From Leptospiraceae bacterium (GTDB taxonomy: Bacteria; Spirochaetota; Leptospiria; Leptospirales; Leptospiraceae): a DNA stretch of 64,000 nt. How positions within the stretch are numbered: the stretch's first letter is position 1; every line of letters begins with the position of its first letter. This document shows positions 48,698-55,648 of this stretch, in pieces. The stretch covers positions 1 through 64,000 of the forward strand of contig JABTUZ010000002.1 of NCBI GenBank assembly GCA_015075105.1, written 5' to 3'. The translations under genes and the position numbers were made by a program. Under the pieces are notes generated by a model. That model did not search any database. It was not told the origin of the DNA and was given only the letters and a program-made list of their open reading frames with translations.

Positions 48698-48711
48698 TTG
48701 ATATAGGTCAA
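48698..48711 (+). promoter_or_regulatory. FNR/DNR-like box for the nos cluster
   Basis: TTGATATAGGTCAA matches the FNR/DNR consensus TTGAT-N4-ATCAA at nine of ten positions. Its centre lies about 36 bases before the start point predicted from TATGAT at 48729, close to the class II activator position. Control by oxygen limitation or nitric oxide is an inference consistent with the downstream genes. Confidence 0.6.
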
Positions 48712-48786: not shown

Positions 48787-49254
48787 ATGAAAAAAAGAAA
48801 TACTTACTCGGTGAGTCTCACTCTTTTCATTCTTATTTTTGTTTTAGGGATTGGCTGCTCTAAAAAAGAAGAGAATGCAAGCAGTGAAGAATCTGGTAAA
48901 AGTAAAATAAATCCTATGGAAGTTAAGGGAATTGGTCCAGTTTCAAAAGTTGATCTTGGGGCTTTAGATGCAAAAAGAGCAGGTAAAGGAAAGACTGAGT
49001 TTGAGTCTAAATGCTCGGCTTGTCATAAGATTGATGAAAAAGTAGTGGGGCCTGCCATAAAAGGAATTACTACCAGAAGGACTCCCGAATGGATTATGAA
49101 TATGATTTTGAATCCGGTCGAGATGACTCAGAAAGATCCTATTGCAAAAGAGCTTCTTGAAGAGCATCTAACACAAATGACTTTCCAAAATGTAAGTCAA
49201 GACGAAGCAAGGGATATGCTTGAATATTTCCGACAGGTAGATGAACAAAAATAA
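48787..49254 (+). CDS. Mono-haem c-type cytochrome lipoprotein of the nos cluster
   Basis: A 155-residue lipoprotein (signal ending LGIGC, C24). The mature part has one haem site C76-S-A-C79-H80 and a likely axial Met in Q-M-T-F near 137. It is the first gene of the nos cluster, 19 bases before nosZ. The obvious role is electron donor to NosZ, corresponding to the NosC-type cytochromes of clade II clusters. It is anchored at a membrane by lipid. Confidence 0.88.
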   Translation: MKKRNTYSVSLTLFILIFVLGIGCSKKEENASSEESGKSKINPMEVKGIGPVSKVDLGALDAKRAGKGKTEFESKCSACHKIDEKVVGPAIKGITTRRTPEWIMNMILNPVEMTQKDPIAKELLEEHLTQMTFQNVSQDEARDMLEYFRQVDEQK

Positions 49255-49273: not shown

Positions 49274-51181
49274 ATGCTGGCAAAAGCAATGCTGAAACTT
49301 GCGTTACTCGCAATTTCTTTCAGCTTAATCAACCAGTGCGGCGGTTCCGGAGGGAAGGCTACCTTAGCGGCTAACGCAGCACAAAAAGTATATGTTGCCC
49401 CAGGTGAAAAGGACGAAGTATATGCCCTTTTGTCTGGAGGATTTAACGGACAGGTAAGTGTACAAGGTATTCCTTCAGGAAGAGTATTCAAAATTATTCC
49501 TGTATTTTCATTGCACACTGAAAATGGGTATGGATTTGACGAAGAAACTAAAGATATGCTTCTCACTTCCAAAGGTTATATTCCTTGGGATGATACTCAT
49601 CATCCGGAGGCTTCTCTAACCGATGGAAATCACGACGGTCGTTGGTTATTCATTAATGGAAACAACACTCCAAGGATTGCAAGAATTGATCTGACTACTT
49701 TTGAAACAAAAGAAATCATAGAGATTCCAAACATTGCAGGGAATCACTCTTCTCCTTTCCTTACCGAGAACACAGAGTACGCAATGTCTGCAACCAGATT
49801 TAGTATTCCTGTTCCTCAAAGAGATATCGCTATCGAAGAAATGGGAAAAGGTAAGTTCAATGGTGTTCTTTCCATGATCAAAATTGATCCAAAAACAGGA
49901 AAGATGAGTCTTGATCTACAAACTATGCTACCTGCTTATGATTATGATTTGGCTCGTTGTGGAAAAGGGCCTTCTCGTGATTGGTGCTTTTTTAGTATGT
50001 ACAATACTGAAATGGCGTTTCAAATGCTTGAGGTTGGGGCTTCAAAAAAAGATAAGGATTATATCCTAGCTTTCAATTGGAAAAAAGCAAGTGAATGTAA
50101 GGCAAAAGCAAGAGACTTTAGTGGTACTTATGTTCACAATATATGGCCTGAAAACCAAAAAACTGTTTCAACCAAACATAATGGCGTGAAAATGTTAGAC
50201 CCGAAAGATTGCCCTGGAATAGCGTATTTTTTACCGACTCCAAAAAGTCCACACGGTGCTGACGTTGATCCAACAGGTGAATACATTGTAGGTGGTGGAA
50301 AATTAGCTACGATTATTTCAGTCCACTCTTTTTCTAAACTTTTAAAAGCCGCAACAGACCCGGCAGCAAAAGATGGAGAAGCTGGAGGAATTCCTATTTT
50401 AAAATATGAATCAACTCTTGCAGGTGAAGTAAAAAAACCATGTCTTGGTCCTCTACATACAGAATTTGACAACAATGGGTATGCTTATACTTCTTGTTTT
50501 GTTAGCTCCGAGGTAGTAAAATGGAAACCCGGTACATGGGAAGTAATACAAAAACTTCCTGCATACTATAGCGTTGGTCACTTAAGTATTGTGGGTGGCG
50601 ATAATAAAAAACCTTTCGGAAAATATCTACTTGCTATGAATAAAATCACCAAGGATAGATACTTACCTGTAGGAATGGAATTGCCTCAATCTGCACAGCT
50701 CTACGATATTTCTGGAAGTAAAGCCGAGCTTTTGGCTGACTTTCCTACAATTGGGGAACCTCATTACGCCCAGATGATTCCAGCGAAACTTCTCAAAGAT
50801 AAAACTAAAAAGATTTATCCTCTTGAAGAAAACAAGCACCCTTATGCTGCAAAAAAAGAGTCTGAGGCTAAAGTAGTTAGAGAAGGAAATGTAGTTAGAG
50901 TGTATTTAACTGCAATCCGATCTCATTTTAAGCCGGACATGGTTCAAGTGAAAAGAGGAGACTTAGTGTATTTCCACGTTACAAATCTCGAGCAAGACTT
51001 TGATATTCCGCACGGATTTGCAATTGCAGGTGCACCTTTACCAAACATCCTTGTGATGCCAGGTCAAACTCGCACGGTGAAATGGGAAGCGAAAGAAGTT
51101 GGAGTATTTCCTTTCTATTGTACAGATTTCTGCTCTGCTCTGCATCAGGAAATGCAACAATACATCAGGGTAACTCCTTAG
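49274..51181 (+). CDS. nosZ: Nitrous oxide reductase, clade II-like
   Basis: A 635-residue NosZ reducing N2O to N2. CuZ histidines are seen in DDTHHPEAS (H109, H110), AGNHSS (H158), SPHGAD, PLHTEF, GHLSI and EPHYAQ. The CuA site is H580, then C616-x3-C620-x3-H624-x2-M627. The N-terminus is a plain Sec-like signal with no twin arginine, as in clade II enzymes. A cysteine at 22 (INQC) could even be lipidated, although Gln before it is unusual. Context (NosB-like protein, NosL, NosD, NosF, NosY; no NosR) also fits clade II. Confidence 0.95.
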   Translation: MLAKAMLKLALLAISFSLINQCGGSGGKATLAANAAQKVYVAPGEKDEVYALLSGGFNGQVSVQGIPSGRVFKIIPVFSLHTENGYGFDEETKDMLLTSKGYIPWDDTHHPEASLTDGNHDGRWLFINGNNTPRIARIDLTTFETKEIIEIPNIAGNHSSPFLTENTEYAMSATRFSIPVPQRDIAIEEMGKGKFNGVLSMIKIDPKTGKMSLDLQTMLPAYDYDLARCGKGPSRDWCFFSMYNTEMAFQMLEVGASKKDKDYILAFNWKKASECKAKARDFSGTYVHNIWPENQKTVSTKHNGVKMLDPKDCPGIAYFLPTPKSPHGADVDPTGEYIVGGGKLATIISVHSFSKLLKAATDPAAKDGEAGGIPILKYESTLAGEVKKPCLGPLHTEFDNNGYAYTSCFVSSEVVKWKPGTWEVIQKLPAYYSVGHLSIVGGDNKKPFGKYLLAMNKITKDRYLPVGMELPQSAQLYDISGSKAELLADFPTIGEPHYAQMIPAKLLKDKTKKIYPLEENKHPYAAKKESEAKVVREGNVVRVYLTAIRSHFKPDMVQVKRGDLVYFHVTNLEQDFDIPHGFAIAGAPLPNILVMPGQTRTVKWEAKEVGVFPFYCTDFCSALHQEMQQYIRVTP

Positions 51182-51322
51182 TTTAACCAAAGAATTGAAT
51201 AGAAGTGGAGCAGAAAATATTTTTTTGCTCCACTCTATTTACAAAAATTGAAGCGAAAAGAAAAAATAATATTTCGATTCTTAGTAAAATCAAAAAATCG
51301 AAAAACAAACAGAGGCTCTAAT

Positions 51323-51916
51323 ATGTTTAAAGTAATCAGCGGTTTAAACCGTCACTTAATCTTAGCAATAGTTGTTCTTTTAATCGGAGTTTATTTTGTA
51401 CCGATTTGGTATATTTCCCTTGCAGCCCCTCAGTATCCAGAGGGTTTAAGTATGAATATCTGGATTAATAAAATTAGTGGGGGCACTCCTTATGATTTGC
51501 AAAATATCAATCTGCTAAACCATTATATCGGGATGGCTGAAATCGTAGAAACATCCATTCCGGAATTATTATTCATGCCATACATTTTAGCGTATATGAT
51601 AGCAGGAGCAATCGTAACCTATTTTTTTCCGAGATATATTATGTACATTTTTGGTATAGTAAACTTTGTTTTAGTTGCTAGTGCAGGGTTGTATGATTTT
51701 TGGAGATGGGAATACAATTACGGACACAACTTAAAACCTGACGCTGCCATTGTAGTTCCAGGGATGACTTACCAACCACCACTTTTATTTTGCAAAGAAT
51801 TATTGAATATCACGGCTTGTAGCCTTCCTCACTTAGGTGCATTTTTTCTATTTGCTTCTTTGGGGATATTGATATTTGTAGTATGGAAAGAAAAAACTAT
51901 TAAGGTTGAAAATTAA
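51323..51916 (+). CDS. Membrane protein of the nos cluster, NosB-like
   Basis: A 197-residue protein from the ATG at 51323 (GAGG before it; a TTG at 51248 would add 25 basic residues). It has about four membrane segments. After the first comes the conserved-looking L-A-A-P-Q-Y-P-E-G-L, and I-N-L-L-N-H-Y-I-G-M follows. A membrane protein at this place, right after nosZ, is typical for clade II clusters. The job may be in electron transfer or copper-site assembly; it is not known to me. Confidence 0.65.
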   Translation: MFKVISGLNRHLILAIVVLLIGVYFVPIWYISLAAPQYPEGLSMNIWINKISGGTPYDLQNINLLNHYIGMAEIVETSIPELLFMPYILAYMIAGAIVTYFFPRYIMYIFGIVNFVLVASAGLYDFWRWEYNYGHNLKPDAAIVVPGMTYQPPLLFCKELLNITACSLPHLGAFFLFASLGILIFVVWKEKTIKVEN

Positions 51917-51931
51917 ACAAGAGGTATAACA

Positions 51932-52411
51932 ATGAAAAGAAAAGATTTTATTTCAAAAGCGACAGCAATTACAACAGGTCTTGTTGCAACAGGGATCTTG
52001 TCCCAAACAAAAAAACACGACCATGACCATTCTGACCCAAACCACAAACACGATCCGAAACACGACCACTCAAAACATATTAAATATGGTATGTTGATTA
52101 CAAAAATAATGGATTGCATCAAAACAGGAAATATCTGCAAGGATCATTGCCTAATGTCTCTTGCAGATGGAGATAAGACTATGTTGGGTTGTGCAAAATC
52201 TGTAAATGAAATGCTCTCTTCTTGCGAAGCACTATTTCAACTTGCAGTTACGAATTCTGAATTCACTCCAAAAATGGCAACTCTGTGCATGGAAATTTGT
52301 TTAAAGTGTGAAAAAGAATGCCAAAAACACGCATCCAAACATAAAGTGTGTGCTGATTGTGGTGCAAGCTGTAAAGCGTGTGCTGATGAATGCAAAAAAA
52401 TAGCAGCTTAA
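51932..52411 (+). CDS. Copper-storage (Csp/DUF326-like) four-helix-bundle protein, exported
   Basis: A 159-residue protein with 14 cysteines arranged in C-x3-C and similar spacings along predicted helices (DCIKTGNICKDHC, CMEICLKCEKEC, CADCGASCKACADEC), as in the copper-storage proteins Csp. The N-terminus (KRKDFISKATA) resembles a twin-arginine signal with KR, so it is probably exported, as Csp1 is. A His/Asp-rich linker follows. Its position between nosZ and nosL suggests a copper reservoir for NosZ maturation. Confidence 0.8.
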   Translation: MKRKDFISKATAITTGLVATGILSQTKKHDHDHSDPNHKHDPKHDHSKHIKYGMLITKIMDCIKTGNICKDHCLMSLADGDKTMLGCAKSVNEMLSSCEALFQLAVTNSEFTPKMATLCMEICLKCEKECQKHASKHKVCADCGASCKACADECKKIAA

Positions 52412-52417
52412 TCTAAA

Positions 52418-52903
52418 ATGAATTTCAAAAAAATTATAATAGCGATAACTATTTTATCGCTTTTTTTTTGTGGGTGCATTGATAAAAATCCGGAAAATAT
52501 TTCTCCAGGAGAAAAGAAATGTGAACACTGCAAAATGGATATAGCACAAATGAACTACCATTCACAAATCATCTCTCCCAAGGGAAGAAAATTTCATTTT
52601 GATTCTATAGAGTGTATGATTTCCTATTGGCTAGAAAATGAACATAGGACAGAAAAACTATTTGTTAGAAATTTTTCTGACTTTAAAAATTCAAAAGAAT
52701 GGCTTGAGATTTCCAATACATTTTTTTTGAAATCAGATAAATTAATTTCTCCGATGAGTGCAAATATTTCTTCTTACAAAAATCTTGAAGGTGCAAACAA
52801 AGCCAAAGATGAATATGGCGGGAAAATTTTAGACCTCTCTGAATTGAAACAATACATTCGTACAGATTGGAAAAAGGAATTATCAGAGAAAACAAAACAC
52901 TAA
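52418..52903 (+). CDS. nosL: NosL copper chaperone, lipoprotein
   Basis: A 161-residue lipoprotein (signal ending LFFCGC) with the Cu(I)-binding motif C35-x2-C38-x-M40 and a conserved F-D-S-I-E-C-M region. NosL hands copper to NosZ for the CuZ site. It lies 6 bases after the Csp-like gene and its TAA overlaps the ATG of nosD (TAATG). Confidence 0.9.
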   Translation: MNFKKIIIAITILSLFFCGCIDKNPENISPGEKKCEHCKMDIAQMNYHSQIISPKGRKFHFDSIECMISYWLENEHRTEKLFVRNFSDFKNSKEWLEISNTFFLKSDKLISPMSANISSYKNLEGANKAKDEYGGKILDLSELKQYIRTDWKKELSEKTKH

Positions 52904-54135
52904 TGCTTTATTTATTATTTTTTATCGGTATCTTTTCTATTTCAGAAACTTTTGCATCTACCCTAATTGTAGATCCTAAAGGGAAAATTTCAACCATTAC
53001 GGAAGCTATACAATTAGCAAAAGACTCCGATACAATTGAAATTTCACCCGGGACTTATTCCGAGGGAATGATTACTATAACTAAAAAACTTCGTTTGATT
53101 GCAAAAGGAAATGTAATCGTGGACGGTCAAACAAAAGAGCATGTAATCAGTATCAATGCGGATAACGTCCGAATTGAAGGAATGCAAATCATGAACAGTG
53201 GAGTTAGCTCCATGAGAGAATTTGCAGGGATTCATGTTAAAGGCTCCAAAAACTGTGAACTTGTAGGAAATAAATTAATCAATAACGCTTATGGTTTTTA
53301 TCTTGAAAAATCAGAAAATTGTTTAATCGAAAACAACGAATCAATCGGAAATGCTAAAGATGAAATTTACGGTGGAAATGGAATTCATCTCTGGTCAGCT
53401 TCCGGGCACACCATTAAAGGAAATACTCTCAACAAACACAGAGACGGTTTATACTTTGAATTTTCATCTAATTTAAAAATTGAAAATAATTCAAGCTCTG
53501 ATAGCATTCGCTATGGAATGCACTTTATGTTTTCCCATGAAAATGTATTTCGTAAAAATAAATTTTTTCGTAACTCCTCAGGTGTTGCAATTATGTATTC
53601 ACGAGATACGATAGTAGAAGAAAACACTTTTGAGCAAAACTGGGGTAGTGGGTCTCATGGAATATTGTTAAAAGAAATTTCTACAAGTAGATTTTATAAA
53701 AATATTTTTAAAGAAAATGCACAAGGTATATATGCAGACAACGCAAATAGAAATATTTTTTCAGAAAATCAATTTTTGAGAAATGGATGGGCTATCAATA
53801 TTCTTGGAAACTGTGAAGAAAATAAGTTTGAAAGAAATAATTTCATAGAAAACGTGTTTGATCTTGGAACAAATTCTCGTGACAACTCAAATGATTATAC
53901 TGGAAATTATTGGGATAAATACAGAGGATTCGATATGGATAAAGATGGCGTAGGAGACAAGCCTCACACACCAGTGCAATTTTTTGGATATTGGGTAAAC
54001 GTATATCCGGTACTGACACTTCTCTTTGAGTCTCCAATAGTAGAAATGTTAGAAATAGCAGAAAAGGCATTTCCAGTAATTAGCCCGGTATCCCTTTTAG
54101 ATTCAAAACCAAGTTTAAGAGTATTTCAATTATGA
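52903..54135 (+). CDS. nosD: NosD periplasmic maturation factor
   Basis: A 410-residue protein from the ATG at 52903, which overlaps the nosL stop and starts a clean signal peptide. An in-frame start 36 bases earlier would spoil it. It is a right-handed beta-helix of many carbohydrate-binding/sugar-hydrolysis-type repeats (N-x-I-x-x-N patterns from about 80 to 340). It works with NosF and NosY in assembling CuZ. The stop overlaps nosF as ATGA. Confidence 0.92.
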   Translation: MLYLLFFIGIFSISETFASTLIVDPKGKISTITEAIQLAKDSDTIEISPGTYSEGMITITKKLRLIAKGNVIVDGQTKEHVISINADNVRIEGMQIMNSGVSSMREFAGIHVKGSKNCELVGNKLINNAYGFYLEKSENCLIENNESIGNAKDEIYGGNGIHLWSASGHTIKGNTLNKHRDGLYFEFSSNLKIENNSSSDSIRYGMHFMFSHENVFRKNKFFRNSSGVAIMYSRDTIVEENTFEQNWGSGSHGILLKEISTSRFYKNIFKENAQGIYADNANRNIFSENQFLRNGWAINILGNCEENKFERNNFIENVFDLGTNSRDNSNDYTGNYWDKYRGFDMDKDGVGDKPHTPVQFFGYWVNVYPVLTLLFESPIVEMLEIAEKAFPVISPVSLLDSKPSLRVFQL

Positions 54136-54845
54136 TAGTAATAAAAAATTTATCAAAAACATTTAACGGAAATAAAGTAATCAGTGATTTTTCTCTTGCA
54201 ATCGAAGAAAATCGAATCACTGCTCTTGTAGGTCCCAATGGCTCAGGAAAGACTACACTTTTAAAATGCATTCTCGGACTGACCTTCCCTGATCCAAACA
54301 GCTCAATTGAAAAAGATGGAATCAAAATTTCTTCAATAGAAGAAGAAGTGCATAAAGAAATCGGCTATATGCCTCAAACTCCAAATTTTCCTAAAAATTT
54401 AAAAGTTACAGAAATCCTCGATATATTCAAAAGAATAGATTCTGCTCCTCCCGATTACATGCTTGAACTCATGGGAGATTTAGAAATCTGGAAATTTGAA
54501 AATAAATTATTTGGAGAGCTATCAGGTGGAATGAAGCAAAAAATAAATATCCTGCAATGCTTCGGCTTTAGAAAGAAACTCTATATTGCAGATGAACCTA
54601 CTTCCAGTTTGGATCCGCACATGTCTTACTTCTTAAAAAGTCTATTAAAGAAAAGAAAAGAATCAGGCGCATCCATTATTTTTACTTCTCACATAATGAG
54701 TGAAGTACAAGAAATTGCTGAAAAAGTCTGTCTTCTTGTAGATGGCCGATTGGTTCTACACGAAACACCTTCAAATATTTTATCCATGAACAATGCTTCT
54801 AACTTAGAAGAAGCAATGAGAATGTACTGGGAGAAAAGAAAATGA
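54132..54845 (+). CDS. nosF: NosF ABC ATPase
   Basis: A 237-residue ATPase with Walker A GPNGSGKTT, Q-loop (M-P-Q-T), signature LSGGMKQK and Walker B with A-D-E-P-T-S-S-L-D. With NosY and NosD it forms the transporter needed for CuZ, probably for a sulfur species or conformational work on NosL/NosD. Both its ends overlap neighbours as ATGA, so translation is coupled. Confidence 0.93.
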   Translation: MIVIKNLSKTFNGNKVISDFSLAIEENRITALVGPNGSGKTTLLKCILGLTFPDPNSSIEKDGIKISSIEEEVHKEIGYMPQTPNFPKNLKVTEILDIFKRIDSAPPDYMLELMGDLEIWKFENKLFGELSGGMKQKINILQCFGFRKKLYIADEPTSSLDPHMSYFLKSLLKKRKESGASIIFTSHIMSEVQEIAEKVCLLVDGRLVLHETPSNILSMNNASNLEEAMRMYWEKRK

Positions 54846-55648
54846 AATTATTTTCACAAGATTTTCGTCAAATCGTGTATCTTGAATTTTATGAAAATAT
54901 CCGCAACAAATGGGTTTTTCTTTATGCAATTGCTTTTTTTATGATTTGCTCTTTGACAATTTATTTTGGTGGGAAACAAAGCTCTAAGATTACAGCCAGT
55001 TTACTGAATATTTTTCTATTACTAATTCCAATCTTTGGGCTATTGTTTGGCAGCGTAAATTTTATGGAATCTCTTCCGTTTATGGAGGTAATTTTATCTC
55101 GTCCTGTAAGTAGGGCAAAACTATTTCTTGGCAAATGGATTGGAGCTAACCTCGGACTCAATCTCGGTTTTGTTTCTGGTACAGCAATTCCTTTGATCTT
55201 ATTTATGGATCCAAGCGAAGGAAAAATTTTTCTCTCGATACAACTACTGATTTATGGAGTTTTATTAAACAGTATATTTCTTAGTCTCTCATTTCTTGCG
55301 TCCATCATAATTATAAAAAAAGAAATGGTACTCGGAAGTATTTTAATTATTTGGTTTTACTTTTACTTTTTATACGATCTGTTAATAGTCGGGATTAGTA
55401 TTTTCTTTGGAGAGTATCCTCTCGAAGTTCCAGTTCTTGGAATGGTTTTGCTAAACCCTTTAGATTTAGTCAGAGTAATTATTTTACTACAAATGGATTC
55501 TGCGGTATTACTCGGATTTACTTCAGCCTTCTTTCAAAAATATTTAGGAAATGTAAGCGGGATTTTTCTTTGCTTTGTTTTCTTAAGTGTGTGGATTATT
55601 ACACCTATTTTTATCGGTGTCAGGATCTTTAAAAGCAAAGATCTGTAA
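54842..55648 (+). CDS. nosY: NosY ABC permease
   Basis: A 268-residue membrane protein with six hydrophobic segments (about 27-45, 55-75, 97-120, 133-160, 165-190 and 235-262) and the ABC2-type short loop L-S-R-P-V-S-R. It is the partner of NosF and last gene of the nos cluster. Downstream is repeat array E, with no clear terminator. Confidence 0.9.
   Translation: MKLFSQDFRQIVYLEFYENIRNKWVFLYAIAFFMICSLTIYFGGKQSSKITASLLNIFLLLIPIFGLLFGSVNFMESLPFMEVILSRPVSRAKLFLGKWIGANLGLNLGFVSGTAIPLILFMDPSEGKIFLSIQLLIYGVLLNSIFLSLSFLASIIIIKKEMVLGSILIIWFYFYFLYDLLIVGISIFFGEYPLEVPVLGMVLLNPLDLVRVIILLQMDSAVLLGFTSAFFQKYLGNVSGIFLCFVFLSVWIITPIFIGVRIFKSKDL

Follow-up and report, generated by a model that had tools for sequence, protein, structure and literature searches.

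A Csp1-family copper storage gene within a clade II nos operon of Leptospiraceae

The nos operon and its upstream region

The DNA analysed here (the window) is a 64,000-nucleotide stretch of a Leptospiraceae genome. On its forward strand lies a tight run of genes in the order cytochrome c–nosZ–nosB–csp1–nosL–nosD–nosF–nosY, with csp1 in the fourth position. The first gene (48787–49254) encodes a lipoprotein-like c-type cytochrome (PF00034), whose position is the same in every related nos cluster examined. It is followed by nosZ (49274–51181), which encodes a Sec-type (clade II) nitrous oxide reductase (TIGR04246, 890 bits), and by the gene for a NosB-like membrane protein (51323–51916, counting from a likely ATG; the mechanical ORF begins at 51248). 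The latter protein has no match among Pfam or NCBIfam models and was assigned from its position and its homologues in relatives. Downstream of csp1 (51932–52411) are nosL, encoding the copper chaperone for NosZ (52418–52903; PF05573, 51 bits), nosD (52867–54135 from the mechanical ORF start, with the true start probably near 52903; TIGR04247, 425 bits), and the genes for the ABC ATPase NosF (54132–54845; PF00005 and position) and the ABC permease NosY (54842–55648; PF12679 and position). The matches to TIGR04246, PF05573, TIGR04247, PF00005 and PF12679 identify a clade II nos cluster, with Sec-type NosZ accompanied by NosL, NosD, NosF and NosY. As in other clusters of this type, nosZ–nosB occurs with nosL, nosD, nosF, nosY and a c-type cytochrome; the window differs in having csp1 between nosB and nosL and a lipobox-like N-terminus on NosZ.

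That N-terminal lipobox-like Cys (e.g. LINQCGG, VSCGKK) is found in the window (49274–49340) and in every one of the 18 Spirochaetota relatives whose genomes were examined (loci L012–L029), and NosZ in these Spirochaetota may therefore be a membrane-anchored lipoprotein. The cytochrome and NosL also carry a lipobox-like N-terminal Cys. In one of the related genomes (L028, G080:C6:9151–10958), the nosZ frame contains several stops and a frame change and appears to be decaying.

A pattern scan of the region upstream of the operon located an FNR/CRP-type palindrome on the forward strand (TTGATATAGGTCAA, 48698–48711). It has one mismatch and by itself does not exceed chance expectation (shuffle fraction 0.066). 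Perfect TTGATN4ATCAA sites are present 5' of the corresponding cytochrome gene in G095 and G217, both of which carry csp1, and in G075 and G129. The window site taken together with the perfect sites of the relatives suggests that the whole nos operon is under FNR/CRP-type control. We also considered an attenuator between csp1 and nosL, where a terminator-like hairpin (52441–52461, forward strand; an 8-pair stem followed by about nine T, the U run) lies just inside the nosL start. The hairpin has no counterpart in the relatives, in which nosL directly follows csp1, and we rejected this possibility.

A Csp1-family copper storage protein

The csp1 ORF begins with an ATG preceded by an AGAGG-type ribosome-binding site, lies 15 bp from the end of the NosB-like ORF (51916) and 6 bp from the start of the nosL ORF (52418), and encodes 159 residues with exactly 14 Cys. 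Its product matches the NCBIfam model TIGR04401 ('Csp1 family four helix bundle copper storage protein') with 146.4 bits (E 7e-43) against a curated cut-off of 100 bits, and the match spans all of the model (positions 1–151 of 151). No Pfam family matches the protein, DUF326/Csp3 included. The match to the solved Csp1 of Methylosinus (MtCsp1; PDB 5fjd) has E 6e-21, and all 13 MtCsp1 Cys align with Cys of the csp1 product. The one additional Cys, C119, is invariant among 11 aligned Csp1s of the class Leptospiria.

An AlphaFold2 model built from a 25-sequence alignment of the locus proteins is a four-helix bundle with pLDDT of 97–99 in the bundle. All 14 Cys are located on the four predicted helices (residues 53–78, 82–106, 112–131 and 138–158; 52088–52405, forward strand). 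The best structural matches of the model are apo-Csp1 (5fjd, Z 21.3) and Cu(I)-Csp1 (5fje, Z 20.8), with a deviation of 1.1 Å over 110 residues; Csp3 structures come next (5fig, 5arm and 6ei0, Z 17.6–20.4). At the mouth of the bundle, H72 and M84 align with MtCsp1 His36 and Met48, and no equivalents of MtCsp1 Met40 and Met43 are retained. Two further His residues, H133 and H137 in the loop between helices 3 and 4, show almost no variation across the wider family and are absent from MtCsp1.

The first 50 residues (51932–52081, forward strand) comprise a Tat-like signal and a His-rich linker, as judged from alignments, and are modeled with low pLDDT. The linker (HDHDHSDPNHKHDPKHDHSKH, 52010–52080) lies between the signal and the bundle; it is common among the Csp1s of both Spirochaetota and Pseudomonadota and is missing from the two other nos-linked copies described below. 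The signal is twin-arginine-like, but in its sequence, K-R-K-D-F-I, the R-R pair is replaced by R-K. R-K is present in 12/12 of the Spirochaetota Csp1s found and R-R in every Pseudomonadota Csp1 with a readable N-terminus, and the Tat motif may have been relaxed in the spirochete lineage. TatC is encoded in the source genome. The Tat-signal model TIGR01409 has no match there, and it finds matches in 12 of the 14 control genomes. This signal-like N-terminus aligns with those of exported Csp1s, which sets the protein apart from the Csp3/DUF326 group, defined by the lack of an export signal. On this evidence the csp1 product is likely exported, perhaps through Tat.

The protein resembles Csp1 of Methylosinus trichosporium OB3b (5fjd, 5fje) in fold, in its 13/13 Cys, in the His36 and Met48 mouth residues and, probably, in being exported (PMC5171941), and differs in having C119, the H133/H137 pair of the helix 3–4 loop and the R-K signal. 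The genetic context also differs, methane oxidation being the setting of the Methylosinus protein and the nos operon that of the window gene. A second relative is NGO1701 Csp of Neisseria gonorrhoeae, an exported Csp1-type protein from outside the methanotrophs (PMC12510493), whose bundle is about 39% identical to that of the window protein. It has 15 Cys and binds 15 Cu(I), and the role shown for it is protection against copper toxicity (PMC12510493). In the gonococcal record NZ_CP119140, a nosZ-like match lies about 360 kb from the csp gene. Cytosolic Csp3s (5fig, 5arm, 6ei0) share the Cys-lined bundle and His residues in the helix 3–4 region (PMC5171941), but they have no signal sequence, are less similar in sequence and, in MtCsp3 and BsCsp3, contain 18–19 Cys (PMC5171941).

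The TIGR04401 score, the MtCsp1 match and the predicted bundle rule out a chance Cys-rich ORF, and we conclude that 51932–52411 encodes a Csp1-family copper-storage protein. An earlier note on this DNA had placed a 14-Cys copper-storage protein with a TAT-like signal between the NosB-like gene and nosL. The coordinates and Cys count agree with ours, the family assignment is borne out by the 146.4-bit match and the predicted Csp1 bundle, and the structure prediction proposed as a check returns a bundle that superposes on Csp1, with the Cys conserved by alignment. The description of the signal stands insofar as it is twin-arginine-like, and needs correcting in that the pair is R-K.

Distribution of the nosB–csp1–nosL arrangement

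Our sample of the class comprised 48 genomes, 12 with Csp1 and 17 with NosZ. Csp1s were surveyed by profile search with TIGR04401; a search with alignment patterns, which fell mostly in the signal region, had given only five loci. In three of the 17 nosZ genomes csp1 lies between nosB and nosL: the window genome, in which it is the single Csp1 found by a genome search, and G095 and G217, which are Leptospiraceae bacterium UBA2033 and another Leptospiraceae MAG. The Csp1 proteins of these two are 45–46% identical to that of the window. Among the other 14 nosZ genomes, 10 lack Csp1 altogether and four (G075, G208, G069 and G129) have one elsewhere; two genomes (G017 and G029) have Csp1 and no NosZ. 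In the fully examined clusters of the class (G075, G208, G129, G137 and G055), nosL directly follows nosB, as it does in G013, whose cluster comes from outside the class, and in G069 nosL is found at the far end.

A tree of seven nos proteins, with Csp1 left out, unites the three carriers in one clade (98/98 support) with G075 as sister. A single insertion of csp1 into the nos operon is the simplest explanation of this clade, and is likely. The Csp1 gene tree places the linked copies outside a well-supported clade of unlinked Leptospiraceae Csp1s (G017, G029 and G075) and neither supports nor rejects one origin for them. Between G095 and G217, csp1 has a dN of 0.046 and a dS of 1.2, compared with 0.042 and 1.2 for NosZ; at about 0.04, its dN/dS is similar to those of NosZ and NosB, and the gene is under purifying selection. 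Its position is unchanged across carriers whose flanking nos proteins are about 65% identical.

The unlinked Leptospiraceae Csp1 genes are each preceded by a gene for a small, Cys-containing, lipoprotein-like protein (L043:7420–7854, L036:1063–1416 and L044:8148–8468). The two that were scanned have no Pfam match; a partnership with these Csp1s is possible.

Outside the class, 33 of 398 Pseudomonadota genomes have a Csp1 above the cut-off, about 60 have NosZ and 13 have both. None of the 33 shows linkage in the stretches examined, some of which are short contigs where linkage past the ends is possible. Genes that recur beside the Pseudomonadota copies include those for redoxin-like proteins and for outer-membrane-like proteins that match no Pfam model. 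One Pseudomonadota Csp1, 53% identical to that of the window, has nirS, two c-type cytochromes and a TonB receptor as neighbours (region L054:7346–11116). Its genome also encodes a clade II-type NosZ, and the locus provides a second denitrification-gene neighbourhood for Csp1. The 345 Bacteroidota genomes yielded no Csp1 above the cut-off, and their weak Csp-like matches are not near nosZ. Among the matches listed for plasmid records there is no linked pair. The sampled Pseudomonadota (398) and Bacteroidota (345) thus show no sign of a general nosZ–csp1 linkage across bacteria. Within the class, NosZ occurs in 7/12 genomes with Csp1 and in 10/36 of the others (p 0.06, not significant); the association is stronger by phylum (p 6e-7 for Spirochaetota and 3e-4 for Pseudomonadota, with kinship not controlled). 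Given the within-class value and the uncontrolled kinship, we keep the phylum-level result out of the main evidence.

The csp1 placement is therefore real but narrow: a lineage-specific variant of a known nos cluster and no general rule. A gene-neighbourhood survey, which the earlier note had proposed, finds csp1 at the nosB/nosL position in two further genomes, all within one clade of one family. The note's description of these proteins as best known from methanotrophs does justice to the literature; the family itself has a wide distribution (33/398 Pseudomonadota and 12/48 class genomes). We found no published report of csp1 in a nos operon in the searchable literature, which does not cover most subscription journals, and the placement, suggested in that note to be new for the family, appears unreported.

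A proposed copper reservoir for NosZ

Of the known biological sinks for N2O, NosZ is the main one, and it fails under copper shortage. Each subunit contains six Cu. To our knowledge, there is no settled account of how copper gets to NosL in the periplasm. We propose that Csp1 is a periplasmic Cu(I) reservoir that is co-expressed with NosZ and feeds NosL and NosDFY, a reading to which we assign a probability of roughly 60%. It builds on the Csp1 family membership, the predicted fold, the conserved Cys and mouth ligands, the operon position, the recurrence of nosB–csp1–nosL in a single clade and purifying selection; the FNR-like sites and the sole Csp1 of the genome are in keeping with it. MtCsp1 provides the precedent: it is exported, its tetramer binds as many as 52 Cu(I), it releases Cu(I) rapidly, its mouth residues His36 and Met48 are ligands of Cu13 and of Cu11/Cu13, and MtCsp1 and MtCsp2 are implicated in copper storage for a cuproenzyme in vivo (PMC5171941).

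In the model, Csp1 would be exported to the periplasm and fold as a Cys-lined four-helix bundle holding roughly 13–15 Cu(I) per monomer. Following the capture of csp1 by a clade II nos operon, the protein would be made when NosZ is made. It would load with periplasmic copper, storing and buffering Cu(I) locally, and would release Cu(I) to NosL at the more open end of the bundle, which is lined by His and Met. NosL would pass the copper to NosDFY and on to the four-copper CuZ site of NosZ, and possibly to CuA as well. At about 14 Cu(I) per monomer, a Csp1 tetramer would hold copper for some four NosZ dimers. Supply of copper to NosZ, the role that the earlier note suggested for the protein, is plausible. 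More tentative, and in our judgement somewhat short of an even chance, is that Csp1 is a dedicated NosZ reservoir, placed under oxygen/NO control and delivering to NosL–NosDFY such that NosZ can be assembled when free copper is scarce.

Several observations weigh against the reservoir reading. Linkage is lacking in 14 of the 17 nosZ genomes of the class, including the sister G075 with its Csp1 elsewhere, and in the stretches examined of the 33 Pseudomonadota genomes with Csp1; the within-class association is at p 0.06; G017 and G029 have Csp1 without NosZ; and the gonococcal protein protects against copper toxicity. The serious rival, if a less likely one, is a general periplasmic copper buffer, which would take up excess Cu(I) and protect the cell without specific service to NosZ. 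An excess of Cu(I) is the likelier because nos genes are expressed under anaerobic, reducing conditions, and deletion of the gonococcal gene makes cells more copper-sensitive (PMC12510493). Most Csp1s lie away from nos genes, and these include the Csp1s of close relatives that lack NosZ; selection would also keep a buffer that is expressed alongside nos. Against a buffer stand the exact nosB/nosL position, which is conserved in three species and not beside efflux genes, and the fact that this gene is the only Csp1 of the source genome.

It is quite improbable that csp1 is a passenger that landed in the operon by chance and is co-transcribed there, its position having no functional meaning: a single inferred insertion and the unlinked clusters elsewhere in the class would fit, but the frame and ligands are intact, dN/dS is about 0.04 and the position has been kept while the flanking nos proteins diverged. 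Least probable is a thiol or redox role in NosZ maturation, such as keeping sites reduced or donating sulfur, which 14 Cys beside maturation genes and the sulfide of CuZ might suggest, since all MtCsp1 copper ligands are conserved on the same predicted fold and we know of no Csp with such a role.

The presence of csp1 in the nos operon, which among the sampled genomes is confined to the window genome and two relatives, suggests that a copper reservoir is set aside for N2O removal. A storage protein fixed within the nos operon offers a direct genetic handle on copper delivery to NosL, for which the sister cluster of G075, without csp1, is a natural comparison. If the reservoir reading is correct, a storage step would lie upstream of NosL, for which we found no description for any nos system in the searchable literature, and N2O respiration would join methane oxidation and metal tolerance among the roles of Csp1.
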